This document shows positions 11 to 63,909 of a stretch of DNA of 64,000 nt, in pieces; within the stretch, counting starts at the first letter, position 1, and the number at the start of each line of letters is the position of its first letter. Location: positions 372,001 through 436,000 of the forward strand of contig NZ_QJSP01000003.1 of the NCBI RefSeq assembly GCF_003217475.1, read 5' to 3'. The notes under the pieces are model-generated. The model was given only the letters and a program-made list of their open reading frames with translations. It was not told the origin of the DNA and did no database searches. A program made the translations under genes and the position numbers. Origin of the DNA: Williamsia limnetica. Lineage in GTDB: Bacteria > Actinomycetota > Actinomycetes > Mycobacteriales > Mycobacteriaceae.

Positions 11-68
11 ATCCGGCACCGCGAATCTCGCCGCGCTTGCCGGATGGCCTCCGCGTTTGGCGGATCGC
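11..68. promoter_or_regulatory. Repeat cluster upstream of the hpaC-hpaB operon, candidate operator
   Basis: Two similar 12-mers, TTGCCGGATGGC at 37-48 and TTGGCGGATCGC at 57-68, lie 20 bp apart in direct orientation. An inverted copy of the core (ATCCGGCA) lies at 11-18. Two-turn spacing of direct repeats fits a dimeric activator site upstream of a catabolic operon. No regulator gene for this operon lies inside the window, so it may sit just to the left. The assignment is inference from repeat geometry only. Confidence 0.35.
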
Positions 69-135
69 GCTGTGGCCGCCGGGCCGCAATAGTGTTCTAC
101 ACCACATTCTGGCGATCCGAAAGGAGGCGTTGACG

Positions 136-714
136 ATGAACAAGGGCGATCTGCGAAACATTTTCGGCCAGTTTGCCAGCGGGGTCACCGTCATCACCTG
201 CACAAACGCCGACGGTGAGCCCCACGGCGCCACAGTCACGGCGTTCACGGCGATCTCGATGGAACCGCGACTGTGCCAGGTCACGATGACCCGGCAATCG
301 AAAGCGTGCGGCTTTCTCGGTGGCGCCCCGTTTGCGGTGAACATCCTCGCGGCCGACCAGGTCGACATCGCAATGCACTTCGCGGGTCGGCCCAGCGCGC
401 CCGGTCCGGTCTGGGCGGACGGGCCCACCGCCCCCGTGCTGTGCGGGGCCGCAGCCACGCTGTCCTGTGAGGCTTGGGCCGAGTACGACGGCGGTGACCA
501 TCTCATCTTCATCGGTGAGATCGTCGCCGCCGAGACCACCGACAAGAACCCGCTCCTCTACTACCGCAGCTCTTTCCACGAACTCGGACCGACGTCCGCC
601 AGCTCGGCGTGGCTCGGGTCCATGGACGACCCACACCGGGGCTGGTTCGACGCCGACACCAGCTTCGTTCCCCTACATCTCAATTCAGATCATCTGAGTC
701 CGACCCCTCGATAA
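136..714 (+). CDS. hpaC: Flavin reductase component of a two-component aromatic hydroxylase (HpaC-like)
   Basis: This 192-residue protein belongs to the flavin reductase-like FMN/FAD-binding split-barrel family. It would use NAD(P)H to make reduced flavin for the oxygenase encoded immediately downstream. The N-terminal segment ([13 protein letters not shown], about residues 9-21) and the [10 protein letters not shown] strand near residue 120 are typical of the family. I chose the ATG at 136 because AAGGAGG stands 8 bases upstream. An in-frame start at 37 lies before that ribosome-binding site. Only 10 bases separate it from hpaB, so the two genes are surely co-transcribed. The cytosolic pair could act on 4-hydroxyphenylacetate, phenol or another simple phenol, and the sequence alone does not decide which. 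Confidence 0.85.
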
Positions 715-724
715 AGGAGACACC

Positions 725-2347
725 ATGACCACTGTCGAAGACCGCGAAAGCGCACCGCTCGATGTCGACCCCATGCAGGTGAACCCCGCCGCCGACCATC
801 CGGCCAACAACACCAAGAACTTCGCGTCGCGCCCGATGACCGGCGACGAGTACATCGAGTCACTACGCGACGACCGCGAAATCTGGCTCCACGGCGAACG
901 CGTCAAAGACGTCACCACCCATGCGGCATTCCGTAACCCCATCCGGATGACCGCGCGGCTGTACGACTCCATGCACACCGGCCCCGACGTCGACAAGGTG
1001 ACGGTTCCCACCGACACCGGCAACGGCGGCGTCACCATGCCCTTCTTCAAGGCCTCGACCAGTTCTGCCGACCTCATCAAAGAGCGCGACGCAATTGCGA
1101 CCTGGGCCCGAAAGACCTATGGCTGGATGGGACGCTCGCCCGACTACAAGGCCAGCTTCCTCGGCACTCTGCACGCGAACAAAGAGCTGTATTCACCCTT
1201 CCAGGCCAACGCCGAACGGTGGTATCGCGAATCGCAGGAGAAGGTCCTGTACTGGAACCACGCGATCATCAATCCCCCGGTCGACCGCCAGTTGCCGCCC
1301 GACGAGGTCGGTGACGTGTTCATGAAGGTGGAGAAGGAAACCGATGCCGGCCTCATCGTGTCCGGCGCCAAAGTCGTCGCCACCGGGTCCGCGATCACCA
1401 ACTACAACTTCATCGCGCACTACGGGTTGCCCATCAAGAAGAAGCAGTTCGCGCTGATCTGCACGGTGCCGATGGATGCGCCTGGCGTGAAGCTGATCTG
1501 CCGGTCGTCCTACACCCAGAATGCGGCCGTGATGGGGACGCCCTTCGATTACCCGCTCTCGAGCCGGATGGACGAGAACGACACCATCTTCATCTTCGAC
1601 AAGGTGCTGGTGCCGTGGGAGAACGTCTTCATGTACGGCGATGTCGAGAAGATCAACGCGTTCTTCCCGCAATCAGGGTTTTTGCCGCGCTTCACCTTCC
1701 AGGGCTGCACCCGCCTCGCCGTCAAGCTCGACTTCATCGCCGGCCTGCTCATGAAGGCTCTCGACGCCACCGGGTCCGGCGGCTTCCGCGGGGTGCAGAC
1801 CAGGGTCGGTGAGGTGATCGGTTGGCGCAACCTCTTCTGGACCCTGACCGACGCGATGGCCCACAACCCGGAACCATGGATCGGCGACACCGTGATCCCC
1901 CGTCTCGAGTACGGCCTGACCTACCGGATGTTCATGATGCAGGGCTACCCGCGTATCAAGGAGATCATCGAACAGGACGTCGCCTCCGGCCTTATCTACC
2001 TTCCCTCCGGCGCAGCCGACTTCAAGAGCCCCGACGTCCGGCCATATCTCGACAAGTACGTTCGCGGCTCCGATGGCATCACCGCCGTCGACCGGGTCAA
2101 AGTCATGAAGGCGCTCTGGGATTCGATCGGCTCCGAGTTCGGAGGACGCCACGAGCTGTACGAACGGAACTACTCGGGCAACCACGAGAACGTCAAGGCC
2201 GAACTGCTGTTCGCAGCTCAGAATCGTGGTGGCGTAGACCAGATGAAAGGTCTCGCCGAGCAATGCCTCGCCGAATACGACCTGGACGGCTGGACCGTGC
2301 CCGATCTCATCGGCAACGACGACGTCAGCTACTTCGGCAACAAGTAG
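725..2347 (+). CDS. hpaB: 4-hydroxyphenylacetate 3-monooxygenase / phenol hydroxylase, oxygenase component
   Basis: This 540-residue protein is a full-length HpaB/PheA1-family FADH2-dependent aromatic hydroxylase. It introduces an ortho hydroxyl into a phenolic ring, using FADH2 delivered by the HpaC-like reductase encoded 10 bases upstream. The N-terminal [14 protein letters not shown] block (about residues 36-49) is the family signature. The helical acyl-CoA-dehydrogenase-like core follows, with conserved stretches such as [10 protein letters not shown]-type and [20 protein letters not shown] (near residue 320). It starts at ATG 725 after AAAGGAGA. The closest relatives known to me are actinobacterial phenol hydroxylases of the PheA1 type, so the hpaB name describes the family and not the substrate. 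A terminator-like hairpin follows the gene. Confidence 0.88.
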
Positions 2348-3977: not shown

Positions 3978-5474
3978 TCAACTGACCGGCAGGTCCACCC
4001 AGTCCGGAGCCCAGACGCGCTCATAGTGGTAGGGATCGAAGGTCCCGTTGCGGTCACGGAAGGACTGTCCGGTCCCCGGCCACAACAGCGTGAGCCGCCG
4101 ACTGAGTGGATCCAGATACCAGCTGCTGCAACCGCTGAGCCACACCGTCGACGCACTGCGCTCGTCGATCTCCCGCGTGTAGGCCTGTTCGGCAGCGGCC
4201 ATCACCTCCAGCGCTATCGGCCCGCCGGCGCTCAGGTGATCCATCGCCCCGAGGACGTAGTCGATCTGTGTCTCGATCATGAAGATCGCCGAGTTGTGGC
4301 CGAGCGCGGCGTTGGGTCCGTCCAGGACGAACATGTTCGGGTATCCGCTGACTGCGGTGGACGCATACGAGACCATGCCCGCCTGCCAGTGCTCGGACAG
4401 TCGCTCACCGCCGACACCCACGATGCGGGTGGCGAACTCCGGGCGGGCGGCCTCGAACCCGGTGGCCAGCACCACCGTGTCGAGCTCGAATGACCTACCG
4501 CTGGCAGCGACGGCCCGCGATCCGTCGAACTCCGCCAACGCCGACGGCTCGAGCGTGACATGGGAACTGGTCATGGTCGGAAAGAACTCGTCGCTGAGCA
4601 ATATTCGCTTGCAACCGATTTCGTAGTTCGGGGTCAGATCGGCGCGCAGACCCGGGTCGCTCACCTGTGCGTGGAGATGACCTAGCGCGCGGTCGCGGAT
4701 CTCGTCGATCGCGGGGTGCAGACCGCGGCGCTGCGCGAAGGCTTTGTCGGCTTCGGAGAACAGTCGCGCCCGCAACTGGTCGGCATTGGCCTTGACCCGC
4801 AGGTGTTCTCGTTCGGCTTCGCTGTATTGCCGGTCCCCGCGAGGCACGACATACGGGGCCGATCGAGAGAACACAACCAACTCCCCCGCCCGCCGCGCGA
4901 GCTCGGGGACCAACTGAACCGCCGAGGCGCCGGTGCCCACCACACCCACCCGGGCACCGTCGATCGGTGCATCACCGTCCCACTGGGCGGTATGAAAGAC
5001 CTTGCCCGGGAACGACTCGACCCCGGCGAAGTCCGGCACCATGGGATTCGCCAGCCGACCGACAGCGACGACCAGCACCCGCGCCCGCAACTCACCCGCG
5101 GTACTCGACACCGCCCAGCAGAGTTCGTCGGGTAGCCACCGGGTCTCGGTGACGTCGACGTTCAAGTGCAGGTGGGGACGGATCCCCTCGTCGGTGGCAG
5201 CTCGCTCGAGATAGTCGTGGATCGCCGCGCCGTCGGCGAACAGCGAATCCCAGTCGCCCGGAGGGCGGAACGAGTAGGAGTAGACGTGCGCGGGAACATC
5301 GCACGAGACGCCCGGATACCGGTTGTCACGCCAGGTGCCTCCCACCGAGTCACCGCGTTCGAGGACGACAAAACTCTCGCTGCCCCGCCTGGCAGTGCGA
5401 ATGGCCATGCCCAGCCCGGCAAATCCGGCGCCGACGATCGCGACGTCGACGTACGCAGGCAAGCGGCCGTTCAC
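3978..5474 (-). CDS. FAD-dependent Baeyer-Villiger-type monooxygenase
   Basis: This 498-residue class B flavoprotein monooxygenase uses FAD and NADPH to insert oxygen into a ketone or hydroxylate a heteroatom. An N-terminal Rossmann motif GAGFAG (residues 15-20) binds FAD. The BVMO fingerprint F-x-G-x3-H-x3-W is present as FPGKVFHTAQW, and a second nucleotide motif, GTGASA, binds NADPH. ATG-box-like residues ATGFEA follow near residue 340. The start is GTG at 5474. That codon overlaps the stop of the upstream CofH-like gene as GTGA, which implies translational coupling and co-function. The substrate is unknown, and no ketone-producing neighbour is obvious. Confidence 0.88.
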   Translation of the reverse strand: MNGRLPAYVDVAIVGAGFAGLGMAIRTARRGSESFVVLERGDSVGGTWRDNRYPGVSCDVPAHVYSYSFRPPGDWDSLFADGAAIHDYLERAATDEGIRPHLHLNVDVTETRWLPDELCWAVSSTAGELRARVLVVAVGRLANPMVPDFAGVESFPGKVFHTAQWDGDAPIDGARVGVVGTGASAVQLVPELARRAGELVVFSRSAPYVVPRGDRQYSEAEREHLRVKANADQLRARLFSEADKAFAQRRGLHPAIDEIRDRALGHLHAQVSDPGLRADLTPNYEIGCKRILLSDEFFPTMTSSHVTLEPSALAEFDGSRAVAASGRSFELDTVVLATGFEAARPEFATRIVGVGGERLSEHWQAGMVSYASTAVSGYPNMFVLDGPNAALGHNSAIFMIETQIDYVLGAMDHLSAGGPIALEVMAAAEQAYTREIDERSASTVWLSGCSSWYLDPLSRRLTLLWPGTGQSFRDRNGTFDPYHYERVWAPDWVDLPVS

Positions 5475-6589
5475 GCGAACACCTTCTGGAGAACGGCTTG
5501 TCGATCGTCTGGGGCCGTCTCATAGAGCGTGGTGCGCTGACGTGTGGTGCGGCCCAGAGCCCCGGCTATCTCGGCTACCTGCGCTGGTACCAGCTGTCTG
5601 CCACTCTCGGGTCCGGCGTCCGGCCGCAGACGCCCGTCGATCAGCACGCCCCCGACGTCGTCGGCGCCCCCGCGGAGCACGGCGTCCAGCGCGACCTCAT
5701 CGAGTTTGGTCCACGCGGCCTGCAGGTGATCGATGGCGCCCAGGGTCAGCAACCGCGCCACGGCATGCAGTGCCCGCGTCTCGTCGAGCGAGGGGCCGCG
5801 CACGGCCTGGGCCCGCAAGTGCGGTGGGGCATTCTCCGGGAGCATCGGCATCAGGATCAGTTCCGTGAAGCCACCGGTGCGCCGTTGGATGTCGACGAGC
5901 AGACGTAGATGCGCGATTTGCTGCGCCGGTGTCTCGACATGGCCGTAGAGCATCGTCGCGGTGGATCGCAGGCCGATGCCGTGGGCGGTGGTGATGGTCT
6001 CGACCCACTCCGCCACCGACAGACCGTCCGGGGTCAGGACGCCGCGTACTTCGTCGTCGAGCACCTGCGCGGCGGTTCCGGGCACCGTCCCGACGCCGGC
6101 GTCGCGGGCTGCCTCCAGGAACTCGCGCGGCGTGAGTGCCAGTCTGTTGGCAGCATCGCGGACCTCCGGTACCCGGTACGCGTGCAGGTGCATGTCGGGG
6201 GCGGTGGCCGAAATCCGGCGGACCAGCCCGAGATAGGCGTCTGCAGATTCGGACTGCGGCACCGGTCCTTGCAGACAGATTTCGGTCGCGCCCAGCTCCC
6301 ACGCCTCGGCGACAAGATCCTCGACAGACGCCGATGATCCGGAGCCGATCACCGCACCGGTTTCCAGGTTGCGATTTGCGACGAATGTCAGTTCGTCGCC
6401 GACGACGTCGCGGCGCGCGGAGTCCGCGAGGGCGCAGAGTTCGTCCAGTTCAGCGCCCTGTGCGCCCAGCAGTACGGCCCATTGCCGATCGTCTATCGAG
6501 GACGGATCGGCCACCAGCGACCGCAGCATCGGCGCCACCTGATCCCCGGGTAGCCGAGTGTCTTCGGCCCAGGAACTTCGCAACGTCAT
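5471..6589 (-). CDS. FbiC/CofH-like protein lacking the radical-SAM cluster motif
   Basis: This 372-residue protein aligns by eye over its whole length with the CofH domain of F420 synthase FbiC. Shared blocks include an opening like ELDELCALADSARRDVVGDE (residues 48-67), NRN at 72-74, GATEICLQG, TTAHGIGLRSTATMLYGHVE, RRTGGFTE and a closing RQRTTLY. In true CofH the NRN is followed by a loop with CX3CX2C that binds the 4Fe-4S cluster. Here that loop is shortened and carries no cysteine. The whole protein has only two Cys (52 and 105). Radical-SAM chemistry is therefore unlikely. It is translationally coupled to the monooxygenase at 3978-5474. It might bind a deazaflavin, flavin or aromatic substrate, or be structural. 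The function is unknown. Confidence 0.72.
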   Translation of the reverse strand: MTLRSSWAEDTRLPGDQVAPMLRSLVADPSSIDDRQWAVLLGAQGAELDELCALADSARRDVVGDELTFVANRNLETGAVIGSGSSASVEDLVAEAWELGATEICLQGPVPQSESADAYLGLVRRISATAPDMHLHAYRVPEVRDAANRLALTPREFLEAARDAGVGTVPGTAAQVLDDEVRGVLTPDGLSVAEWVETITTAHGIGLRSTATMLYGHVETPAQQIAHLRLLVDIQRRTGGFTELILMPMLPENAPPHLRAQAVRGPSLDETRALHAVARLLTLGAIDHLQAAWTKLDEVALDAVLRGGADDVGGVLIDGRLRPDAGPESGRQLVPAQVAEIAGALGRTTRQRTTLYETAPDDRQAVLQKVFA

Positions 6590-7547: not shown

Positions 7548-8240
7548 TCAGCGCGGCACCCGCTTGTGCGCGAGGCCGCCCGCGATCACCTGGTCTCGGA
7601 CCAGCGCACTCGCGTCCTCGGGGTGGAGGTGGCCGTACCACTCGCCGGGCGGGTTCACGATCGCCAGCGGACCCAGATTGCAAGGGCTCAGGCAGCCGGT
7701 CCCGGTCACCTTGGTCTCCGTGTTCTTCGAGTTCGCCGTCAGCGCACGATGCAGCGGCCCGGCGCCGTACGCCATACACCGAGGACCCTTGCAGATCAGC
7801 ACATGTCGATCGTGCGCTTCGATCGTCGACCACGCCGGACTCCGGTACGACGCCGGACTGTCCCGAATCGGTGTCCCCGGCTCGTCGAGGAGTCCGCCGA
7901 GATGCGACGCGACTGCATCGGCCAGCGAATCCGGCTCGTGCATCGTCACAGTCAGCTGCTTTGCGGGCCGCGTCTCCGACCAGTTCGCCACCGCGCGTCT
8001 GGTCCAGGTCGTCAGATACTTGTCGCGGGGCACGGCGACCGGGAGCAGTACGACGTCACTCACACCGTCCACCACAGCCTCGTCGAGCACCTCGTGGACA
8101 CTCGGCGACCCGACGTCGAGGTAGGCCAACCGCACGTCCTGTTGCGCTGCCGACCGCACCTGATCGATCAGCCTTCGGGTGGCGACCTCGTCGATACCGC
8201 TGACCGTCGGGCGCACCACGACAACCGTTCGCCGACTCAC
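7548..8240 (-). CDS. CbiX-like domain fused to a thioredoxin-fold [2Fe-2S] ferredoxin domain
   Basis: This 230-residue protein has two parts. Residues 1-120 resemble a CbiX/sirohydrochlorin-chelatase half (alternating strands, DVVLLPVAVPRDKY). The HGS motif expected near the N-terminus and the second metal-site His are not visible, so chelatase activity is doubtful. Residues about 135-225 form a thioredoxin-like [2Fe-2S] domain with CKGPRC and CLSPC cysteine pairs. The gene is the last of a four-gene operon that begins with a cobalamin riboswitch, and its GTG start overlaps the upstream stop as GTGA. A role in reductive handling or trafficking of imported corrinoid is a reasonable inference, not a demonstrated one. 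Confidence 0.78.
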   Translation of the reverse strand: MSRRTVVVVRPTVSGIDEVATRRLIDQVRSAAQQDVRLAYLDVGSPSVHEVLDEAVVDGVSDVVLLPVAVPRDKYLTTWTRRAVANWSETRPAKQLTVTMHEPDSLADAVASHLGGLLDEPGTPIRDSPASYRSPAWSTIEAHDRHVLICKGPRCMAYGAGPLHRALTANSKNTETKVTGTGCLSPCNLGPLAIVNPPGEWYGHLHPEDASALVRDQVIAGGLAHKRVPR

Positions 8241-9301
8241 TGGTTCGGCGCCGCAGACCAGTCGGCACCGCTCTCGGGCACCAGTGCGAATTCTTCGAGT
8301 TTGCCGCGCAGCTGTTCTGCACCATAGATGTTGGGAAACCCACTGGTGAACATCGCGAGAGGTAAGACGACAAATCGGTTCTGCTTGACCGCGTCCAGGT
8401 CGCGCAAGCCTTCACGGGCCTTGATCGCGTCGATCTTGCCCTGCACCTCATCAGAGCTCTTCTTGTAGTCCATGATCACGATGACGTCTGGTTCGGCACC
8501 GGCGACGGTCTCCCAGCTCGCCCGGAACCAGGTGTTGTCGACATCGGCGAAGACGTTCGTCCCGCCAGCAGCGTCGATGATGCCGTTGGGCGCGCCGTTT
8601 CCACCGCTGGTGTACAGATCTTCTTCGCCGCTGTCGTAGATCAGGACCTGCGGCGCAGTGTCGGGCTGCGGCGCTTGCTCGAGGCGATCGAGGCGGGTGT
8701 CGAGTTCGGTTGCGGCCTCCGTTGCCTCGTCCTGCGTCCCGAACAGGCTGCCGTAGTTGGCGACGTCCGCACGCAGGGCGTCCCACGGTCCCATCGTCCC
8801 CATCGGCGCATCCTGCGCAGTACCCTGCCGGCAACTGTCGGAGATGATGTACGCTCCGATGCCGTTCTGCCCGAGTGACTCCGGCGTCACCCCGGATGCA
8901 CCCTTGAACAGACCGCTGTATGAACCGACGACCAGGTCGGCCTGCTTGCCCAAGACGGTTTCCATCGTGATCGTCCCGTCGAGGTGAGGTACGCCGGCGA
9001 TGCCGGGACCGAACATCGACTCCATCACCGCATCATTGTTGGCGTTCAACGTCACTGCCGCGAGCTTGTCGAGTCCACCCACCCGCAGGATCGTGCCGAT
9101 GTTCGCACTATTGCTGGTGGCGACCACCTTCTCGATCGGCAGATCGTAGGTGACCTCGGTCCCGCAGTTCTCGAGTGTCACCGAGGTGGCGGATTCGGTC
9201 TCCTCGATCGGGTCGGTGGCCGAGCACGCACCCAGTGCGAGTACAGCCACAGCCGGTAGCGCCACCGCCATGGAACGCCGCCGCATCACAGTTGGCTTCA
9301 T
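8237..9301 (-). CDS. btuF: Corrinoid ABC importer, substrate-binding lipoprotein
   Basis: This 354-residue periplasmic-binding protein belongs to the iron-siderophore/B12 class (two lobes joined by a rigid helix). A signal peptide ends in a lipobox (LALGAC, Cys at about residue 26), so the mature protein is a lipoprotein anchored outside the membrane. The body has typical segments such as KQADLVVGSYSGLF and GAEPDVIVIMDY. It overlaps both neighbours by 4 bases. The family alone cannot separate siderophore from corrinoid substrates. The riboswitch upstream of the operon points to cobalamin or cobinamide. I therefore use the btuF name with moderate confidence about substrate. Confidence 0.78.
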   Translation of the reverse strand: MKPTVMRRRSMAVALPAVAVLALGACSATDPIEETESATSVTLENCGTEVTYDLPIEKVVATSNSANIGTILRVGGLDKLAAVTLNANNDAVMESMFGPGIAGVPHLDGTITMETVLGKQADLVVGSYSGLFKGASGVTPESLGQNGIGAYIISDSCRQGTAQDAPMGTMGPWDALRADVANYGSLFGTQDEATEAATELDTRLDRLEQAPQPDTAPQVLIYDSGEEDLYTSGGNGAPNGIIDAAGGTNVFADVDNTWFRASWETVAGAEPDVIVIMDYKKSSDEVQGKIDAIKAREGLRDLDAVKQNRFVVLPLAMFTSGFPNIYGAEQLRGKLEEFALVPESGADWSAAPNQ

Positions 9302-10134
9302 TTCGTCTCTTCTCCTCTTGGTACACGTGCGAGAGTGTCTTCGAAAACAAGGTGGGTGCGACCGGTTGCGACGTTCTCCAACCGAAAAGCCTGCACGCCG
9401 AACACTTCCGCGAGGACTTCGACGCTCAGCGCCACCTCGGGTGCGCCGTGCGCGAGCACCTTTCCTTCATGCAGGACGTAGACGCGGTCGCAGACGGCTG
9501 CAGCGAGGTTCAGGTCGTGCATCGCCATCAGAATGGTCCGGCCCTGTCGACGCAGCAGACCGAGAAGCTCGAGTTGGTGCCTGATGTCGAGGTGGTTGGT
9601 CGGTTCGTCGAGAACGACGAGACCGCAATCCTGGGCAAGACCGCGAGCGAGAACAACTCTGCGCCGTTCGCCGCCTGACAGATTGTCGACCGGACTGTGC
9701 GCGAGTGCGGCCATGCCGACGGCGTCGAGCGCCTTGTCCACTGCGCGGTCATCTCGGGCCCGGCCCATGCTCCACGGCCGGGCGTGTGGAAGCCGTCCCA
9801 GCGCAACGTATTCGTGCACCAGGAGGTCGGACGGCATCTCCTCCTCCTGCGCCACGAACGCGACCAGGCGTGCGCGGCGCCGCGCGGACAGAGATTCCAA
9901 CGCCAGATCACCGAGGTGCACCGAACCCTGGTGACGTGGGCCGAGGCCGACAAGCGCCCGCAGCAGGGTCGACTTGCCCGAGCCGTTGGGTCCGACGAGA
10001 CCGACGACGCTGCCCGCGTCGACCTGCATGTCGACTCCGTCGATGATCGCGCGTCCGTCGATCCTCACCCGAACATCTGCGGCCGACAGTGAAACAGGGG
10101 CCACCGGGGCAACAGGAATCACCGCATCGCTCAC
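9298..10134 (-). CDS. btuD: Corrinoid ABC importer, ATP-binding protein
   Basis: This 278-residue ABC ATPase of the FecE/BtuD type has a Walker A GPNGSGKST (near residue 49), an LSGGERRRV signature and a Walker B GLVVLDEPTNHLD. It would power the membrane permease encoded directly upstream, on the cytoplasmic face. Starts and stops overlap by 4 bases with both the permease and the binding protein. The C-terminal segment after the H-loop (MAMHDLNLAAAVCDRVYVL) is normal length for importers of this class. The substrate inference rests on the operon's riboswitch. Confidence 0.85.
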   Translation of the reverse strand: MSDAVIPVAPVAPVSLSAADVRVRIDGRAIIDGVDMQVDAGSVVGLVGPNGSGKSTLLRALVGLGPRHQGSVHLGDLALESLSARRRARLVAFVAQEEEMPSDLLVHEYVALGRLPHARPWSMGRARDDRAVDKALDAVGMAALAHSPVDNLSGGERRRVVLARGLAQDCGLVVLDEPTNHLDIRHQLELLGLLRRQGRTILMAMHDLNLAAAVCDRVYVLHEGKVLAHGAPEVALSVEVLAEVFGVQAFRLENVATGRTHLVFEDTLARVPRGEETK

Positions 10135-11228
10135 GCGCTGCCCCCGAACATGTACCTACGTCGCCCGAGGATGAACAAGAACAACGGGGCCCCGATGACA
10201 CCGGTGACAACGCTGAGGGGAATCTCCGTGGGCCGCAGCGCAGTGCGAGCCACCACGTCGACCCAGACGAGAAACGCAGCCCCGATCAAGGCAGCGGCCG
10301 GTAGAACCCATCGATGACGGGCACCTACCAGCATCCGGGTGATATGCGGGATGACCAGGCCGACAAAGGCGATGGCTCCCGACACCGCCACCATCGTGCC
10401 GACCATGGCGGCGAGCACAACGAACAGGAAGTTACGCAAGGCCCGGACCGGGACACCGCTGGAGGCAGCGACATCAGGGCCTGCGGCAAGCGCATCGAGC
10501 CACCCGTGAATGGCCGCAACCGCGCAGGTCAGCAACACGATGACCACCGCCGGTAGCCACAGTTTGTCCCAGGACGCACCCGCCAAACTGCCGAGTAACC
10601 AAAACAGGACCGACTGTGCGGCTTGAGAGTCGTTGTCACGCAGAACCAGGAAGCTCGCGATGGCCGAGAGTGCCGACGCCATGACAGTTCCGGTCAGCAC
10701 CAGCCGCAAGGGGGTTATCCCGCCTTGCATCACAGCGATGGAGAACACCAGCGCGGCAGCGGCGAGCGCGCCGATCATCGCGCCCAAGCTCAGCGACCAG
10801 ATGCCGAAGCTCGCGAGAAATCCGGTCGTGATGACGGCGGTGGCGCCCACACTGGCGCCGGAGGAGACTCCGAGCAGATGCGGGTCGGCCAGGGCGTTGC
10901 GCACCAGCGTCTGAACCACCGCGCCTGCCACGGCCAGCCCGGCGCCGACGATGAGACCCATCAGCACCCGCGGCGCACGGATGCCCCAGACGATCGCCAG
11001 TTCCGAACGGGTCACCGCGGGCCCACCGAACCGGGAATGGATGACGTCGACGACCGTGGAGACCGGCAACATCTCGGCCCCGAAGCCCAGCGCACAGATC
11101 GCCGACACCAGCGTGAACAAGGCCAACACGGGCAGCACCACGAGCGGGCGGAGCCGCTTGCGGCGTCGCTCCAACTGCTCAGGGGGTGCTGCGCGTAACG
11201 GAGACAGAGCTCCGCCATGAGTTCTCAA
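10131..11228 (-). CDS. btuC: Corrinoid ABC importer, FecCD/BtuC-type permease
   Basis: This FecCD-family permease has about ten membrane segments. It carries the conserved GLIVGAGLAVAGAVVQTLVRN block, the ADPHLLGVSSGASVGA block and the cytoplasmic IAFVGLVIPHITRMLVGARH loop that contacts the ATPase. The open frame reaches TTG 11309, but that codon lies inside the cobalamin riboswitch. The next usable start is TTG 11228, which gives 365 residues and begins just after the aptamer. I prefer TTG 11228. No in-frame ATG or GTG lies between the two. It heads the operon permease-ATPase-binding protein-ferredoxin. Confidence 0.82.
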   Translation of the reverse strand: MRTHGGALSPLRAAPPEQLERRRKRLRPLVVLPVLALFTLVSAICALGFGAEMLPVSTVVDVIHSRFGGPAVTRSELAIVWGIRAPRVLMGLIVGAGLAVAGAVVQTLVRNALADPHLLGVSSGASVGATAVITTGFLASFGIWSLSLGAMIGALAAAALVFSIAVMQGGITPLRLVLTGTVMASALSAIASFLVLRDNDSQAAQSVLFWLLGSLAGASWDKLWLPAVVIVLLTCAVAAIHGWLDALAAGPDVAASSGVPVRALRNFLFVVLAAMVGTMVAVSGAIAFVGLVIPHITRMLVGARHRWVLPAAALIGAAFLVWVDVVARTALRPTEIPLSVVTGVIGAPLFLFILGRRRYMFGGSA

Positions 11229-11261
11229 AGTGCCGCCATTCCATCCTCGTGGGGTGACCGT

Positions 11262-11380
11262 GCTGCGTCGAGGGTGGTATCTGGCTGGTTCACTCGCGTC
11301 GGCGAGCAAACATCACAGTGGCGGGACCGCGCCGGAGTTACACCGACTTCCCAGGGACCTCAACGACCAGAACACTACGA
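11262..11380 (-). promoter_or_regulatory. Cobalamin riboswitch
   Basis: Read on the minus strand, the leader of the transporter operon contains the ordered conserved elements of a B12 riboswitch. They are GGGAAG, then CGGTG with a pairing CTCCGG, then CGCGGTCCCGCCACTGTGA with the B12 box core at 11324-11313, and finally CAGCCAGATACC at about 11287-11276. The aptamer ends some 35 bases before the TTG start of the permease, which fits control of translation initiation. One base is missing in the last box relative to the usual CAGGAUACC form. That variation is common enough not to weaken the call. Confidence 0.85.
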
Positions 11381-23525: not shown

Positions 23526-24557
23526 GTGAGCGACTGCAGTTTCGGACTCTGGTACGACTTCCGCAATCCCGCCGGGGCGAATCGAGGATTCGCCAGTTTC
23601 TACCAGCAGACCATGGACCAGATCAGCTGGGCTGAATCCATGGGCATCGATTCGGTCTGGCTGACCGAACACCACTTCATGGACGACGGATACACACCGT
23701 CGCCGTTCGTCCTCGCCGGCGCGATCGGCGAACGCACCACCACCATGCGGATCGGCACCAACCTCGTCGTCTCCCCACTGCACAACCCGATACGGCTGGC
23801 CGAGGACGCAGCCACGCTCTCACTGCTGACGGGCGGCCGGTTCTCGCTCGGCATCGGCCAGGGCTACTGGGCCCCGGAGTTCGAGGCTTTCGACCGCAAC
23901 CTCATCAATCGCCCGAGCCTGTTGGAAGAAGGCGCCGAGATCATCCGGCGGTCGTGGTCGGGGTCGTCCGAGGAGTTCACCGGCAAACGCTTCAGCAAGC
24001 CGGGCCTACCGGTGACGCCCGTCCCCGAGTCGAACCCCGAACTCCTCGTCGGAGCCATGGCGGATGTCGCCATCGAACGCGCCGCCCGCATCGCCGACGG
24101 CTTCCTCAGTACCCAGAACCATCACCACCCGATCTACCTCGACGCCCTCGACAAGGTCGGGAAATCGCGCGCGGACGGCAAGGTCTACGCCGGGCAGTGG
24201 GCCATCATCGCCGACGATCCCGAACGCGAGTGGGCGCGCATCGGCGAGTACGCGATGTACCAGATCAACATGTACATCGGCATGGGCGCGTTCGGTCCTG
24301 TCGGAACAATTCCCCAATTCACCGACCCCGCCCAGCTCCTGCAGGCCGGATCGTTCACCTTGTACGACCCCGACACCGCGATCGAGGCCTTCACGACGAT
24401 GCTGCGCGCGACACCGCAAATCAAGGACGTGCACTTCTGGGCACAACTTCCGGGCGAATCGGTGGACAGCGGAAGTGCCCGCATCGAGCTGCTGGCATCG
24501 CGAGTCGTACCGGCCGTGCGTGCGCGCCTGGCCGAGAACGCGGAGGTGCCTGCGTGA
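23526..24557 (+). CDS. LLM-class flavin-dependent monooxygenase A
   Basis: This 343-residue luciferase-like TIM-barrel oxidoreductase has the WLTEHHF motif (residues 46-52), the GTNLVVSPLHNPIRLAEDAA block and GGRFSLGIGQGY for flavin binding. Such enzymes use FMNH2 from a reductase (or, in some branches, F420H2) and insert oxygen into ketones, thioethers or amines. A flavin reductase and RibBA in the same cluster favour FMNH2. The GTG start is at 23526. Its stop overlaps the acyl-CoA synthetase start as GTGA. It heads the first transcription unit of the cluster. Confidence 0.85.
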   Translation: MSDCSFGLWYDFRNPAGANRGFASFYQQTMDQISWAESMGIDSVWLTEHHFMDDGYTPSPFVLAGAIGERTTTMRIGTNLVVSPLHNPIRLAEDAATLSLLTGGRFSLGIGQGYWAPEFEAFDRNLINRPSLLEEGAEIIRRSWSGSSEEFTGKRFSKPGLPVTPVPESNPELLVGAMADVAIERAARIADGFLSTQNHHHPIYLDALDKVGKSRADGKVYAGQWAIIADDPEREWARIGEYAMYQINMYIGMGAFGPVGTIPQFTDPAQLLQAGSFTLYDPDTAIEAFTTMLRATPQIKDVHFWAQLPGESVDSGSARIELLASRVVPAVRARLAENAEVPA

Positions 24558-26269: not shown

Positions 26270-27472
26270 GTGAAGTTCGGCGTGTTCTACGTGCTGGAGT
26301 GTCCCGACCAGGACTTTCGGCGCGCCTACGACGAGATGCTCACGCAAGTTGCCATCGCCGAAGATCTCGGATTCGACGAGGTCTGGCTCGCCGAGCACCA
26401 CGGCAGCGACTACGGATCGATGCCATCGCCGCAGGTCGCCGCAGCCGCAATCGCCGCCCGCACCGAGCGCATGCGGATCGGGATCGCCGTCAGCAACCTG
26501 ACCTTCAACTGGCCGGTCCGCGTGGCCGAGGACTATGCGATGGTCGACGTGCTCTCCGGGGGCCGCCTCGACTTCGGCGTCGGCCGCGGCTACCAGCCGC
26601 ACGAGTTCGCGTCGATGGGCGCAGCCGACAAACAGTCCGTCAGCCGTGAAGTCTTCGCCGAGGCGTTGCAGATCATCACCGGACTGTGGACCAAACCCGT
26701 CGGTGAGCCGTACACCTTCGTCGGCAAGCACTTTCAGGTGTTCGACGCCGACTGTCGCCCCACTCCGCTGCAGCGCCCTACCCCGCCCATCTACGTCGCG
26801 TCGATCAGCCCCGAATCATTTGATCTGGTCGCCGAATACGGTCACAACATGCTCATCACGCCGACCCTGATGACGTTGCCCGAGCTCAACAGCTTCGTCA
26901 TCAAGGCCAAACGTGCACTGATGCAACGCGGCGTCAGCCCGCTGTCCATGGATTTCCCGATGAATTGGCAGATCCACCTCGCCGACACCGACGAGCACGC
27001 CATCGACAACGCGCGCGAGTCGCTGGAGTGGTACTTCCGCTCCGCCATGAGCAACGCACCGCACGGACCCGAGACGCCGGAGACGTATGAGCGATACGCC
27101 GACCTGGCCGCAGCCGCCGGGGAGGCGGGCGGCATGACCGTCAGCGGACTGCGCGAGGGCGGTGTGGTCTACGTGGGCGACGCCGACGGGCTGATCCGCG
27201 AGATCGAGATCTTGCGCGAGGAAACAGGTTTGCAGCACCTGATCTGCTGGATGCGGTTCGGCGACATGAAGCACGACCACGTCGTCGAATCGATGAAGAT
27301 CTTCGCCGACAAGGTGATGCCGCACTTCCGCGACCTGCCACCGGTGGTCCCACGCGCCCTGCGCGACGAGGACGATGCCGACTGGTCGGGCGCACATCTT
27401 CATCTCGACATCACCGACGACGAGCTGGAACACCAAGGAGAAGGAGAAGTTTCATGGGTTATCTCGCGGTAG
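26270..27472 (+). CDS. LLM-class flavin-dependent monooxygenase B
   Basis: This 400-residue luciferase-like enzyme is longer than the other two in the cluster because of a C-terminal extension. It has VWLAEHHGSDYG near residue 42, the RIGIAVSNLTFNWPVRVAED block and GGRLDFGVGRGYQPHEF. The GTG start is at 26270, preceded by a modest GGAGA. It overlaps the next gene by 19 bases. Its sequence is well diverged from the other two LLM proteins, so the three are not recent duplicates and may act on different intermediates. Confidence 0.85.
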   Translation: MKFGVFYVLECPDQDFRRAYDEMLTQVAIAEDLGFDEVWLAEHHGSDYGSMPSPQVAAAAIAARTERMRIGIAVSNLTFNWPVRVAEDYAMVDVLSGGRLDFGVGRGYQPHEFASMGAADKQSVSREVFAEALQIITGLWTKPVGEPYTFVGKHFQVFDADCRPTPLQRPTPPIYVASISPESFDLVAEYGHNMLITPTLMTLPELNSFVIKAKRALMQRGVSPLSMDFPMNWQIHLADTDEHAIDNARESLEWYFRSAMSNAPHGPETPETYERYADLAAAAGEAGGMTVSGLREGGVVYVGDADGLIREIEILREETGLQHLICWMRFGDMKHDHVVESMKIFADKVMPHFRDLPPVVPRALRDEDDADWSGAHLHLDITDDELEHQGEGEVSWVISR

Positions 27473-29599: not shown

Positions 29600-30691
29600 A
29601 TGGAATGTGGAGTCCTTCTCGTCTTCCAGAACTACCACGCGAACGCCACCGACCAAGAAGTGTTCACCCACGATCTGGGGCTCGGCCTCCTGGCCGAAAA
29701 GCACGGATTCGACTCGGTCTGGTCGGCCGAGCACCACTTCGACGACTACTCGATGTGCCCGGACAACATGCAGATCATGTCGTACCTCGCGGGCCAGACC
29801 TCACGCATCAAGCTCGGCCTGGGTGCGGTGATCCTGCCCTGGAACAACCCGCTGCGCGTGGTCGAAAAGGTCATCATGCTCGATCAGATGTCCGGTGGGC
29901 GTGTGCTTCTCGGTATGGGCCGCGGCCTGGCGAAGATGGAATACGAGGCCTTCGGCATTCCGATGGAAGAGGCCCGTGCACGCTTCAACGAGTCCGCCGA
30001 AGTGGTCATGCGCGGTCTGCGCACTGGCATCGTCGAGAGCGACGGCCCGATGTATCCGCAGATCCCCACCGCCGTGCGTCCCGCACCAGGACCCGAGAAC
30101 AACTGGGATGGGCGACTCTTCGCGGCCGCGATGTCGCCGGACTCGGTTCCCATCGTCGCCGACCTGGGTGTGCAGATGATGACCTTCATGCAGTTCCCCT
30201 TCGAGAAGCATGCTGAAGCGATCAACGGCTGGAAAGATCTGTTCCGCGCTGCGCAGGGCCGCGAGCCCGGCCCCGCCGTCATCCAGGACTTCGTCATCTG
30301 CCACGAGGACGAGGAAGAGGCCCGCCGCCTGGCCTACGAGCACATCAACCGTTACTTCCTGTCGGTCATCAAGCACTACGACTTTGCAGGCAAGCACTGG
30401 CGCGAGACACCCGGCTACGAGACCTACCAGGCCGGCGCCGACATGATCCGCGAAGCCGGCATGGAGAACGCCGCCAACGCGTATGTCGAGGCCAATATCT
30501 ATGGCACGCCGGAGCAGTGCGTCGAGAAGTACGCGCACCGCCACGAACTGATCGGCGACTTCTTGCCGAACGCCGCGTTCTCCTTCGGCGGCATCCCGTT
30601 CGACACGGCCGAATCAAGCCTGAAGCTGTTCGGCGAGAAAGTTGTTCCTGAGCTCCACAAGATGAAAGCTCCTGCAACAGCGGGAGTCTAG
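29600..30691 (+). CDS. LLM-class flavin-dependent monooxygenase C
   Basis: This 363-residue luciferase-like enzyme has VWSAEHHFDDYS near residues 40-51, GAVILPWNNPLRVVEK and GGRVLLGMGRG. It starts at ATG 29600 behind CAGGAG. A strong hairpin follows its stop, so it ends the second transcription unit, or at least that unit is attenuated before the flavin genes. With 23526 and 26270 it makes three unlike LLM proteins within 7 kb. Confidence 0.85.
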   Translation: MECGVLLVFQNYHANATDQEVFTHDLGLGLLAEKHGFDSVWSAEHHFDDYSMCPDNMQIMSYLAGQTSRIKLGLGAVILPWNNPLRVVEKVIMLDQMSGGRVLLGMGRGLAKMEYEAFGIPMEEARARFNESAEVVMRGLRTGIVESDGPMYPQIPTAVRPAPGPENNWDGRLFAAAMSPDSVPIVADLGVQMMTFMQFPFEKHAEAINGWKDLFRAAQGREPGPAVIQDFVICHEDEEEARRLAYEHINRYFLSVIKHYDFAGKHWRETPGYETYQAGADMIREAGMENAANAYVEANIYGTPEQCVEKYAHRHELIGDFLPNAAFSFGGIPFDTAESSLKLFGEKVVPELHKMKAPATAGV

Positions 30692-57872: not shown

Positions 57873-58520
57873 TCACCTCGTCTCGGCGATGGGCAGCAAG
57901 CGCGGGTCAAACGGTTCCAGTCCAACGGTTTCGGTGGGGATCGACGACTGCATGGCGAGCGCGGAGCGACGATCTGTGGGTGAGGCGCCGGGCAATCCGG
58001 TGCAGATCGCAGTCAACACCCCGGCGTAAGGGGTGCCGAGGTCGAGTAGCCCGAACCGGATGAGTTCGAGGGCGGGCCGGTACGTCGTCAGCAGCTCGAG
58101 TCCGGCGCCGGATTCGGCGCGGGCACAGTATTCGAGAACAACAGGAAGGAAGTCGGGCAGTTCGCCGTGCAGGTCGACGAGGTAGCCGCTGTCGCGATAG
58201 CGTTGCTTGAACTCGCCGAGGGCTGCTCCGCGCCGGCGGGTGTCCCCGTCGGTCCAATACGACAGGTAGAGCGTCTGTTTCCTCGACAGATCGAACACGT
58301 CGACGTACTCACGCCGTAGGGCTTCACCATCGGACCCGGCCAAATACTCGACGAAGCGCGCCAGCGGGTCTGCCGTGGTGCGGTCAGGGTGCTCGGCGAG
58401 CGCCGCGCGCAACAGGTCCACTCTCGAGAGCAGCTCGGCATCCGGGTAGCCCAGAGACCACGCGGCGGCTTGGTAGATCACCCGATGATCGACCTCACGG
58501 GCTCCGCGCCGCCACTTCAC
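57873..58520 (-). CDS. narJ: Nitrate reductase assembly chaperone NarJ
   Basis: This 215-residue helical chaperone of the TorD/NarJ family holds NarGH until the molybdenum cofactor is inserted. Typical segments are YQAAAWSLGYPDAELLSRVDLL, REYVDVFDLSRKQTLYLSYW and SGYLVDLHGELPDFLP. The start is GTG 58520, overlapping the narH stop as GTGA. The open frame extends far upstream in narH, but only this part is NarJ. Confidence 0.92.
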   Translation of the reverse strand: MKWRRGAREVDHRVIYQAAAWSLGYPDAELLSRVDLLRAALAEHPDRTTADPLARFVEYLAGSDGEALRREYVDVFDLSRKQTLYLSYWTDGDTRRRGAALGEFKQRYRDSGYLVDLHGELPDFLPVVLEYCARAESGAGLELLTTYRPALELIRFGLLDLGTPYAGVLTAICTGLPGASPTDRRSALAMQSSIPTETVGLEPFDPRLLPIAETR

Positions 58521-60181
58521 GGCGTCTCCGAGTTCTTCGGGAACATCCCGGACGGCACACCATTTCCGTCCCAGTTGAGCAGGTTCACCCGGCCGGCCAG
58601 GCTGTCGGCGCCGGCGGCGGTGTCGCTGGTCTGGCGCTGCTTGAGAGCGTGGAACGTCTCGACCGACACCGGTGCCGGTGTCCCACTGGCCTCCCCAAAC
58701 GAGCCCGACTCGAACATGCCGGGGCCCTCGTCGTAGTCGAGGGAACAGCCCATCTCGTCCAGCTTTTCGGCCTGTTCGAGGTGCGCAGTCGGGATCACGT
58801 ACCGGTCCTCGTATTTGGCGATGGCCATGAGGCGGTACATCTCGTACACCTGCTCCTCCGTCATACCCACCGACGCCGGGATGTCGGGGTTCGGTTCGCG
58901 ACCGAGAGTGACGTCGCGCATGTACGCGCGCATGGCGGCCAGACGTTTGAGGACGGTGTCGATGACGTCGGTGTCGCCTGCGGTGAACATCTCGGCGAGG
59001 TACTCGACCGGGATCCGCAGCGCATCGATCGCGCCGAACAAGGTGCCGTAACCCTCCGCGTCGTGCCCCTGTTCGGCGAGGAGATCGACGATCGGCGACA
59101 GCGGCGGGACGTACCAAACCATGGGCATGGTGCGGTATTCCGGATGCAGCGGAAGGGCCACCCGGTACTTCTTGGCCAGTGCATAGACCGGGGACCGGCG
59201 AGCGGCGTCGAGCCAGTCGTCGGGGATCCCGTCGGCCCGGGCGGCCGCGATCACGACGGGGTCATCAGGATCGAGCATCAGATCGAGTTGCGCCTCGTAC
59301 AGGTCTTTCTCGTCCGGGGTCGACGCAGCGTCGGCGACGGCATCGGCGTCGTAGAGGAAGATCCCGAGATACCGCAGCCGGCCCACGCACGTTTCCGAGC
59401 AGACCGTCGGCTGGCCGACCTCGATCCGTGGATAACACAGCGTGCATTTTTCTGCCTTACCCGACTTGTGGTTGAAATAGATCTTCTTGTAAGGACATCC
59501 GGTGATGCACTGGCGCCAGCCGCGGCAGCGATCCTGGTCGACCAGCACGATCCCGTCTTCGCTGCGCTTGTAGATCGCCCCCGACGGGCACGACGCCATA
59601 CACGACGGATTGAGACAGTGTTCGCAGATCCGCGGTAGGTAGAACATGAAGGTCTGCTCGAAACTGAACTTCACTGCGTCTTCGCAGTCGCGGCGTAGTT
59701 TCGCGACAATTGGATCGAGGTCTCCGTACTGCGTTGCGCCGCCGAGGTTGTCGTCCCAGTTCGCCGACCAGCTGATCTTCGTGTCCTCACCGGTGAGCAG
59801 CGATTTGGGCTTGGCCACCGGAAAGTCGTCGCCCAAGGGTGCGTCGATGAGCGTTTGGTAGTCGTATGTCCAGGGCTCGTAGTAGTCGGAGATCGTGGGC
59901 TGGACCGGGCTGGCGAAGAGGGTAAGCAGCTTTTGCAACCGGCCTCCGGTCCGCAGCCGCAGCTTGCCCTTGGAGTTCAAATGCCAGCCGCCGCGCCACT
60001 TCTCTTGGTCCTCGTACTGACGCGGATACCCCTGCCCAGGCCTGGTCTCGACGTTGTTGAACCACACGTACTCGGTGCCGGCGCGGTTGGTCCACGCCTG
60101 CTTGCACGTCACTGAGCACGTATGGCACCCGATGCACTTGTCCAGATTCATCACCATGCCCACCTGGGCCATGACTCGCAT
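58517..60181 (-). CDS. narH: Respiratory nitrate reductase beta subunit NarH
   Basis: This 554-residue iron-sulfur subunit carries the Cys motifs CIGCHTCSVTCKQAW (18-32), CEHCLNPSC, CRGWRQCITGCPYK and CTLC...CSETC. They bind three [4Fe-4S] clusters and one [3Fe-4S] cluster (the Trp in CRGWRQC marks the 3Fe site). It transfers electrons from NarI hemes to NarG. Its ATG overlaps the narG stop as TGATG. Length and spacing are normal for actinobacterial NarH. Confidence 0.95.
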   Translation of the reverse strand: MRVMAQVGMVMNLDKCIGCHTCSVTCKQAWTNRAGTEYVWFNNVETRPGQGYPRQYEDQEKWRGGWHLNSKGKLRLRTGGRLQKLLTLFASPVQPTISDYYEPWTYDYQTLIDAPLGDDFPVAKPKSLLTGEDTKISWSANWDDNLGGATQYGDLDPIVAKLRRDCEDAVKFSFEQTFMFYLPRICEHCLNPSCMASCPSGAIYKRSEDGIVLVDQDRCRGWRQCITGCPYKKIYFNHKSGKAEKCTLCYPRIEVGQPTVCSETCVGRLRYLGIFLYDADAVADAASTPDEKDLYEAQLDLMLDPDDPVVIAAARADGIPDDWLDAARRSPVYALAKKYRVALPLHPEYRTMPMVWYVPPLSPIVDLLAEQGHDAEGYGTLFGAIDALRIPVEYLAEMFTAGDTDVIDTVLKRLAAMRAYMRDVTLGREPNPDIPASVGMTEEQVYEMYRLMAIAKYEDRYVIPTAHLEQAEKLDEMGCSLDYDEGPGMFESGSFGEASGTPAPVSVETFHALKQRQTSDTAAGADSLAGRVNLLNWDGNGVPSGMFPKNSETP

Positions 60182-63100: not shown

Positions 63101-63909
63101 GAGCCCCACATCATCAGGTATGTGGCGTCCCACCAGTCGCCTGATTCGGGGACGTCGGTTTGGTCGCCGAACACCTGTGGGCTGGCGACCGGTAGGTCGG
63201 CGTACCAGTCGTAGAACGACGTCATCACCCCACCGATGAGTTGGATGAAACGGGTACCCACGCAGTGCGACACCATCGACATCGCCGGGATCGGGGAGAA
63301 GCCGGCGCAGCGGTCGGGACCATAGGTCTTGATGGTGTGAACGTGCGCGGCGGCGGCCATCTCGATGGCCTCATCCCAGGAGACCCGCACCAGGCCGCCC
63401 TTGCCCCGGGCCTGCTGATACGACTTTCGGCGCAGCGGATCCCCGACCACGTCGGCCCAGGCGAGCACCGGATCTTTGAGCTGGGCTTTTGCCGCGCGAT
63501 ACATCTCGACCAGAACACCGCGGGCGTAGGGATGGCGAACACGCGTAGGTGAGTAGGTGTACCAGGAGAACGCGGCGCCGCGGGGACAGCCGCGGGGCTC
63601 GTACTCGGGGCTGTCCGGGCCGACCGAGGGGTAGTCGGTTTCCTGGGTTTCCCAGGTGATGATGCCGTCCTTGACGTACACCTTCCACGAGCACGATCCG
63701 GTGCAGTTCACGCCGTGGGTGGAGCGGACGATTTTGTCATGACTCCAACGGTCCCGGTAGAACACGTCGCCCGCTCGGCCGCCTTGACGAAAGACCATCC
63801 GGCCGTCTTCGCTCTCATCCCAGCGTGTAAAGAACTTACCCACGTCGAGAAGTGCTTTGGCGGCGTCACCCTGGACCCCGTGTGAATCAACATACGTTGG
63901 CCGAGCCAT
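60181..63909 (-). CDS. narG: Respiratory nitrate reductase alpha subunit NarG
   Basis: This 1242-residue molybdenum catalytic subunit reduces nitrate to nitrite at the inner face of the membrane. The FS0 cluster ligands fall at His65, Cys69, Cys73 and Cys108 (THGVNCTGSCSWK, RGCPRG), the same spacing as in E. coli NarG. The YDWYADLP block holds the Asp ligand of Mo. The C-terminal half has the molybdopterin-dinucleotide-binding domain. ATG 63909 starts it. There is no Tat signal, as expected for NarG. It heads the five-gene operon narGHJIK. Confidence 0.96.
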   Translation of the reverse strand: MARPTYVDSHGVQGDAAKALLDVGKFFTRWDESEDGRMVFRQGGRAGDVFYRDRWSHDKIVRSTHGVNCTGSCSWKVYVKDGIITWETQETDYPSVGPDSPEYEPRGCPRGAAFSWYTYSPTRVRHPYARGVLVEMYRAAKAQLKDPVLAWADVVGDPLRRKSYQQARGKGGLVRVSWDEAIEMAAAAHVHTIKTYGPDRCAGFSPIPAMSMVSHCVGTRFIQLIGGVMTSFYDWYADLPVASPQVFGDQTDVPESGDWWDATYLMMWGSNVPVTRTPDAHWMAEVRYRGTKVVAVSPDYADNSKFADEWLPAQAGTDAALAMAMGHVILTEFFVKKSVPFFTDYIKTYSDLPFLIHLDEHEGAYVPGKFVTADELASLPDGAEADDDVWKTVVLDDTTGDPAVPNGSLGFRFSAAGEGRWNLDLGDIEPVLTLLDRDGADNVEILLPAFDAPDGSGSVLRRGVPATRVNGALVTTVFDLMFAQYGVARDGLPGQWPTGYDDATTPYTPAWQAEITGVPADAAIRVAREFATNSIDSGGRSMIIMGAGICQWFHGDATYRAILSLLILTGCMGRNGGGWAHYVGQEKCRPITGWISLANALDWSRPPRTMTGTSYWYMHTDQWRNDGYSTASLASPLSKGTLTHEHTADAIAQSARMGWMPFYPQFDRNPLDLADEANAAVDAGAADTVGSYVAEKLHDGGLTPAITDVDAPENWPRTLVLWRSNLMGSSAKGNEYFLRNLLGTHHNVLGTENPQTPRPKDVRWHDEAPEGKLDLLMSADFRMTSTTLLSDIVFPAATWYEKHDLSSTDMHPFVHAFSPAIDPPWEAKSDFDLFHLLAEKFSALAKTHLGVRHDLVSVPMQHDTPGEMAQPHGRVTDWKDAPTPGTPGKNLPNFTVVERDYTAIAHKLAAVGPLADKLGFTVKNVTYDVAEQSDRLAASNGVMPSGPAEGRPAIDTDVKMAEAILTYSGTTNGALALDGFDKLQKRVGKKLDDLAAGSEEKRITFADTQRAPVPVITSPEWSGSETGGRRYAPFTVNIERLKPFHTLTGRMHFYLDHDWMIDMGEALPIYRPPLDMHRLFGEPRLGSDGAQQITVRYLTPHSKWSIHSEYQDNLFMLSLSRGGPTAWLSPQDAAAIDVVDNDWIECVNANGVLVCRAIVSHRMPEGVTFVYHAQERTIDVPKSEATGRRGGMHNSVTRLLVKPTHLIGGYAQLSYAFNYLGPAGNQRDMVATIRKRSQEVTY

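Follow-up and report, generated by a model that had tools for sequence, protein, structure and literature searches.

Certain biosynthetic steps are served by a pair of enzymes of which one is oxygen-dependent and the other belongs to the radical-SAM (S-adenosylmethionine) type, as in HemF/HemN and AcsF/BchE. Radical-SAM enzymes also include MqnE, the aminofutalosine synthase of menaquinone synthesis. FO, the precursor of F420, is made in all F420 producers studied by a universal mechanism that relies on two radical-SAM domain enzymes, as stated in passages of a 2021 review (PMC8498797). According to these passages, canonical CofH converts tyrosine into a p-hydroxybenzyl radical, which it attaches to 5-amino-6-ribitylaminouracil, after which CofG closes the ring (PMC8498797). 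Oxygen sensitivity is suspected of limiting FO production, as mentioned in part of another article (PMC11917521).

This article describes a locus of Williamsia limnetica (NCBI RefSeq assembly GCF_003217475.1, contig NZ_QJSP01000003.1) in which a clusterless homologue of CofH, here named CofHx, is encoded next to a Baeyer-Villiger-type monooxygenase (BVMO). The window, i.e., the whole stretch of 64,000 nucleotides that was analysed (positions 372,001 to 436,000), lies on contig C3 of a genome of 6.35 Mb rated 100% complete. Genome comparisons suggest that CofHx and BVMO carry out the CofH step of FO synthesis without an Fe-S cluster or SAM, using O2 and reduced flavin, a reading to which we assign a probability of about 0.75. 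The features of the pair are as follows.

5471..6589, minus strand: CofHx, clusterless CofH homologue of 372 aa (open reading frame, CofH profile, AlphaFold model)
6320..6367, minus strand: residues 75-90 of CofHx, the shortened loop after NRN, without Cys, where canonical CofH carries CX3CX2C (alignment)
6263..6268, minus strand: Gly108-Pro109 of CofHx, Gly-Gly in canonical CofH (alignment)
5471..5474, minus strand: GTGA, the CofHx stop overlapping the start codon (GTG) of BVMO (sequence)
3978..5474, minus strand: BVMO, Baeyer-Villiger-type flavin monooxygenase of 498 aa (profile matches, solved relatives)
5298..5342, minus strand: BVMO motif GGTWRDNRYPGVSCD (GGxWxxxxYPGxxxD; pattern in 10 of 10 rows)
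4977..5012, minus strand: BVMO fingerprint FPGKVFHTAQWD (FxGxxxHxxxW[P/D]; G157, H161 and W165 invariant in 10 of 10 rows)

CofHx and its monooxygenase partner

The homology of CofHx to CofH, the C-terminal half of FbiC, extends over nearly the whole domain: residues 34-358 align with positions 3-344 of the 345 in model TIGR03551 (E 1e-92), with a score of 310.7 bits, short of the curated cut-off (374.1). After NRN, canonical FbiC has a stretch about 18 residues longer than that of CofHx, and the cysteines of CofHx are Cys52 and Cys105. None of 50 CofHx rows (48 orthologues and two fused forms) carries Cys in any of the three columns of the cluster, and two of these columns are gapped in all 50, whereas CYTGCRFC is present in the 30 canonical FbiC rows of the alignment; the script divided the rows by the cluster motif itself, yet the two sets coincide with the way in which the loci were fetched, 48 as high-scoring orthologues and 30 as FbiC, with none switching sides. 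The canonical Gly-Gly (CMQGGI), a SAM-contact motif, is Gly-Pro in the window protein and in 90% of the 48 CofHx rows, and is retained in L133, for example. Over the 221 positions conserved in canonical CofH, CofHx retains 89 in at least 90% of rows and loses 102, while newly conserved residues include Arg139, a Ser in the canonical proteins. Purifying selection acts on the gene (dN/dS of 0.08-0.14 across six pairs drawn from four Williamsia genomes).

The AlphaFold model of CofHx (pLDDT 81.4, pTM 0.83) has its best solved match in MqnE (6xig/6xi9; TM 0.75-0.77 by query length), from which it differs by an identity of 23-24%, followed by other radical-SAM barrels. CofHx shares with CofH the domain-long homology, the CofH/MqnE-type fold and the genetic association with CofG and the remaining F420 pathway (in Williamsia, cofG is present elsewhere in the genome), and it lacks both the CX3CX2C cluster motif and a score reaching the TIGR03551 cut-off. 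Because the defining motif was tested and is absent, the name CofH (radical-SAM) enzyme does not apply; CofHx is a clusterless homologue of CofH and probably fulfils the same task by other means. An assembly or sequencing error as the cause of the loop deletion was ruled out by its recurrence in Williamsia, Gordonia and Actinomycetospora genomes that were assembled independently, and by the purifying selection noted above. The first-pass annotation had already read the gene as a CofH/FbiC-C homologue without radical-SAM cysteines, with the position, strand, length and two cysteines given here, and overlapping a Baeyer-Villiger-type monooxygenase gene by GTGA (5474-5471, minus strand). This description holds, and neither of the two results that it named as refuting occurred, the loop being no assembly error and homologues beside monooxygenases also lacking CX3CX2C.

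BVMO belongs to the sequence family of type I BVMOs, and its closest solved relatives are steroid monooxygenase (4ap3) and phenylacetone monooxygenase (1w4x). The patterns GGxWxxxxYPGxxxD and FxGxxxHxxxW[P/D], the motifs of type I BVMOs, are both complete in the window protein; departures from the second occur in L009 (F to Y), L010 (last residue H) and L011 (last residue R). The dN/dS of the gene in the Williamsia comparison is 0.03-0.10. Unlike the known type I enzymes, this protein belongs to a separate high-scoring group found only beside CofHx among the 401 family genomes, and a role in cofactor synthesis is proposed for it. A score of at least 637 bits was obtained in 45 of these genomes, all of them CofHx carriers, the next match being 533. 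The two genomes just below the gap (533 and 523 bits; genus g6) have no CofHx at threshold, but in them a fused FbiC adjoins the BVMO gene; the next genome inspected (G418, 492 bits) has neither CofH nor CofG adjoining its BVMO. BVMO is bound to CofHx as tightly as CofHx is to BVMO. In the 46th CofHx carrier, G606, the BVMO gene is split over two frames (L162:4394-5844), by an assembly error or as a broken gene.

Carrier genomes and the replacement of canonical CofH

A CofHx query at E <= 1e-98 matched 46 of the 401 sampled family genomes, namely nine Williamsia, 34 members of genus g5 and single representatives of g81, g89 and g94. Three genomes stood out as carriers in a sample of the order (298 genomes), the third of which, G275, belongs to another family, and in a class-wide profile search (394 genomes) only the window's own genome (704 bits) and G089 (624 bits) stood apart, no other score exceeding 391. 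The named carriers comprise six Williamsia records, Gordonia sp. ABSL49_1, Gordonia jacobaea and Actinomycetospora termitidis; the nearest named relatives of the window are Williamsia genomes, at 88-89% identity. Among the matches listed, the cluster motif is present in all 45 non-carrier loci inspected (27 from the order search and 18 from the class search).

CofHx adjoins the BVMO gene in every one of the 46 family carriers and in G275. The two genes are neighbours on one strand in all 37 non-Williamsia family carriers, with cofG next in 36 (CofHx-BVMO-cofG) and on a separate contig in G351; the order in G275 is cofG-CofHx-BVMO, and in the other eight Williamsia, as in the window's genome, CofHx adjoins BVMO and cofG lies elsewhere. 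With BVMO starts picked by script, the CofHx/BVMO junction of 46 other loci is a -4 overlap in 26 and a spacing of 2 to 56 bases in 20. Flanking genes were compared for nine CofHx loci (L132-L135, L141, L142, L155, L162, L170). Among the matches listed, seven share flanks with the canonical fbiC loci L171, L182 and L183, and the same seven with the Williamsia cofG loci L172, L174, L175 and L178; in these seven loci the operon therefore occupies the place of the relatives' fbiC. CofHx also resembles the CofH half of FbiC in its surroundings: in many carriers cofG lies next to it or is fused with it. Of 17 window proteins compared, BVMO alone adjoins CofHx in all nine related loci.

The own genome yielded, with TIGR03551, CofHx and a 22.9-bit cross-hit to CofG, and no other match. 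CofG itself (466 bits, cut-off 213) is a stand-alone frame of 503 aa that ends after the CofG domain, and a CofE gene (249 bits, cut-off 180.65) adjoins a CofD-family gene about 22 kb from cofG, so that the later F420 steps are present. No TIGR03551 match above the cut-off was found in the nine Williamsia carriers, nor in the 38 other carriers (37 non-Williamsia family members and G275), where CofHx scores 245-290 bits (260 in G275) and further matches are cross-hits of at most 43.8 bits. Canonical FbiC was found at 531-533 bits in all three controls of genus g5 without CofHx (G082, G144 and G293), which were picked because each had an FbiC-type match in the order search. CofG was found in all 47 carriers and CofE above its cut-off in all 50 genomes tested (the 47 carriers and the three controls). 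The genes around the CofH step are thus kept while no CofH match passes the cut-off, which means that the carriers lack the usual CofH.

Given that CofHx is the sole CofH homologue found in its genome, with no normal fbiC there and no canonical CofH above the cut-off in any of the 47 carriers tested, it is likely to serve the CofH step of FO synthesis. On these genomic grounds CofHx very probably participates in this step, and it probably does so jointly with BVMO. The carrier genomes appear to break the rule of two radical-SAM enzymes for FO. The view of the first-pass annotation that CofHx is a repurposed paralogue is not upheld, as the search for a normal fbiC elsewhere in the genome, which it had advised, returned CofG alone and no canonical CofH passed the cut-off in the 47 carriers. 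Its alternative suggestions, a partner of the monooxygenase or a binder of deazaflavin or flavin, fared differently: the pairing with BVMO is conserved, and the likely role is the CofH step itself rather than a new use of a deazaflavin-binding fold.

The state of CofG bears on another arrangement, in which CofHx would have no catalytic role and would act as a scaffold or bind the precursor, both radical steps falling to CofG, perhaps together with an unrelated enzyme. CofHx has no cluster and mostly no GG motif, and 19 of the 176 conserved positions of CofG differ in carriers, as could be expected in that case; however, the other 157 are kept, and both the constant BVMO and the fused FbiC with a clusterless half would be left unexplained, which makes this arrangement improbable. 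There is also little likelihood that FO is no longer made and that FO or F420-0 is imported, with CofHx, BVMO and CofG making a different deazaflavin-like metabolite. Import would be favoured by an ABC cassette near the pair, as its three proteins find their best matches in models of putative F420-0 transporters, although the scores (139.9, 259 and 247 bits) all fall short of the cut-offs. Against import, the nine related loci gave no match to the substrate-binding and permease genes of the cassette, three of them showing an ATPase match only (33-35% identity, about 7 kb away); CofG is conserved, and each of the 47 carriers tested has CofE.

Fused forms were found in two genomes of genus g6 (G442 and G468), where FbiC combines a CofG half that is intact (CRDRCHYC or CQDRCHYC) with a clusterless CofH half and has an overlapping BVMO gene; the fused protein of G442 reaches 466 bits with the CofG model and 335 with the CofH model (below the 374.1 cut-off). 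These forms place clusterless CofH inside a predicted FO synthase. They score like canonical FbiC in a CofHx-type search (289 and 317 bits), and therefore the family, order and class searches cannot exclude further fused forms. A luciferase-like gene lies downstream of the fused FbiC-BVMO pair in both g6 genomes (the L213 gene was judged by eye), and the one at L212:8458-9459 scores 197 bits for TIGR03557 (F420 G6PD family, cut-off 210) and 213 bits for TIGR03885 (cut-off 399).

In a tree that combined 50 CofHx with 48 canonical and 4 degenerate CofH sequences, CofHx forms one clade (100/100) with some rows on long branches, and the two fused forms split first within it when the canonical sequences are taken as outside. 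The degenerate sequences belong to four of the nine Williamsia carriers (L175, L176, L177 and L178), which encode an FbiC (829-aa frame) with a normal CofG half and a degenerate CofH half; the other five have a CofG-only open reading frame. The degenerate half, whose branch is very long, falls with canonical g5 FbiC and keeps the three cluster cysteines in all four. It lacks 34 of the 82 positions common to canonical CofH and CofHx, a measure that favours CofHx by construction, as over all 221 positions degenerate halves keep 106-107 and CofHx rows 114-131. Its dN/dS is 0.17-0.36, whereas the CofG half encoded by this gene has 0.02-0.06, CofHx 0.08-0.14 and BVMO 0.03-0.10; such values are in keeping with a displaced domain that is still under some constraint. 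The retained cysteines, together with the 34 missing positions, raise the possibility that in Williamsia the cluster-bearing half and CofHx form a split CofH; this is very improbable, considering the five Williamsia with CofG only, the relaxed constraint on the half and the 38 other carriers, which have nothing further beyond the cross-hits.

For the replacement by CofHx and BVMO, the simplest history that we infer is one in which a fused FbiC encoded next to a BVMO gene lost the cluster and was then split and spread. Replacement or transfer may have taken place several times separately, judging from the g5 controls with normal FbiC, the degenerate halves in Williamsia, the fused forms of g6 and the gene order of the Actinomycetospora type. 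This evolutionary change can be traced through the fused form and the degenerate halves of FbiC.

Possible chemistry of the CofH step

A cluster-free CofH cannot start the p-hydroxybenzyl radical in the known way. Replacement, linkage and conservation are found in the sequence data, whereas the enzymatic chemistry is a proposal made on chemical grounds. BVMO would insert oxygen beside the carbonyl of a tyrosine-derived 4-hydroxyphenyl compound, the obvious candidates being 4-hydroxyphenylpyruvate and 4-hydroxyphenylacetaldehyde, yielding a 4-hydroxybenzyl ester. Phenylacetone monooxygenase makes a benzyl ester, which is the reaction type proposed here. The ester would expel its carboxylate to give a p-quinone methide, the electrophilic counterpart of the p-hydroxybenzyl radical of CofH. 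CofHx, with the CofH barrel and many of the conserved residues kept, would bind 5-amino-6-ribitylaminouracil and steer its nucleophilic C5 (the enamine carbon) onto the quinone methide, leading to the normal CofH product with no radical, and the radical-SAM enzyme CofG would then close the ring to FO.

In general terms, we lean slightly towards a second, O2-dependent FO synthase in which a flavin monooxygenase makes p-quinone methide or an equivalent hydroxybenzyl electrophile and a clusterless radical-SAM protein directs it onto C5. That the chemistry is specifically a quinone methide formed by the Baeyer-Villiger route is a tentative proposal, with somewhat less than an even chance. CofHx and BVMO might instead replace CofH with an oxygenase that attacks the tyrosine nitrogen (N-oxidation with C-alpha/C-beta cleavage) or yields a hydroxybenzyl radical, with no Baeyer-Villiger insertion. 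The same genomic evidence (replacement, linkage and the BVMO score gap) would accommodate this route, BVMO weakly matches the N-monooxygenase model Lys_Orn_oxgnase (1.8e-7), and canonical CofH starts at the tyrosine amine in the account given in part of the 2021 review (PMC8498797). Nevertheless, the nearest solved relatives are BVMOs and both BVMO fingerprints occur in the window protein, which renders this alternative unlikely.

Several points weigh against a joint action of CofHx and BVMO in the CofH step. The carriers are related, and the 46 genomes are therefore not 46 independent events. The loss of 102 of the 221 canonical conserved positions goes beyond the cluster loop, and single CofHx rows (114-131) are barely above the degenerate Williamsia halves (106-107). 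Relatives of BVMO are widespread (246 of 401 family genomes at E <= 1e-110), so that its co-occurrence with CofHx rests on the score gap, and the predicted BVMO structure is poor (pLDDT 58.7), which makes its pocket uninformative. Among the matches listed, L135 (G351) and L170 (G275) do not share the fbiC flanks, while the G351 cofG locus (L136) does have flanks of the fbiC type. The genome-wide search for a second CofH was confined to the 47 CofHx carriers and the three g5 controls. FO or F420 production by the carriers is a prediction from genes, and the BVMO substrate and the quinone methide are both proposed.

The pair of CofHx and BVMO follows the logic of HemF/HemN and AcsF/BchE, an O2-using substitute for a radical-SAM step, but differs from them in that the radical-SAM protein itself stays as the cluster-free partner of an oxygenase. 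No clusterless CofH and no BVMO acting in F420 synthesis was found described in titles and abstracts of the open PMC literature, most subscription papers being outside this scope, in agreement with the first impression that such a pair was undescribed. Within the same literature no paper combined F420, CofH and Gordonia, F420 and Williamsia, or FO synthase, F420 and quinone methide. If CofHx and BVMO act as proposed, F420 synthesis would have an aerobic branch and a new way to build the cofactor; a radical-SAM protein would have turned into a cluster-free oxygenase partner, with one radical-SAM step replaced by two-electron oxygen chemistry; and the suspected O2 sensitivity of FO production could be eased at the CofH step.

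Other genes of the window

The remaining neighbours, i.e., the flavin reductase and HpaB-like genes, a sigma factor, a CMD protein, an NmrA protein and the ABC cassette, were considered as CofHx partners and rejected on the comparison of 17 window proteins given above. The flavin reductase and the HpaB-like hydroxylase form a pair at 37-2347 (plus strand); the HpaB-like protein occurs at the same place in three other Williamsia (98.5-98.9% identity) and has no match in the other six related loci. At the far end of the window, two large genes (58517-63909, minus strand; 554 and 1242 aa) resemble, by eye, the beta and alpha subunits of nitrate reductase. Three luciferase-like oxidoreductases (23526-24557, 26270-27472 and 29600-30691, plus strand) match several F420- or FMN-dependent families, below the cut-off of every family listed.

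For the three-gene ABC cassette (8237-11309, minus strand), the best matches, each scoring under its cut-off, are TIGR03868, TIGR03873 and TIGR03869, which model putative F420-0 transporters. The substrate-binding gene of the cassette is overlapped by a gene at 7548-8240 (minus strand) for a protein of 230 aa with a CbiX-like and a 2Fe-2S ferredoxin-like stretch. The cassette could serve in the salvage of F420-0 or in corrinoid or siderophore transport.

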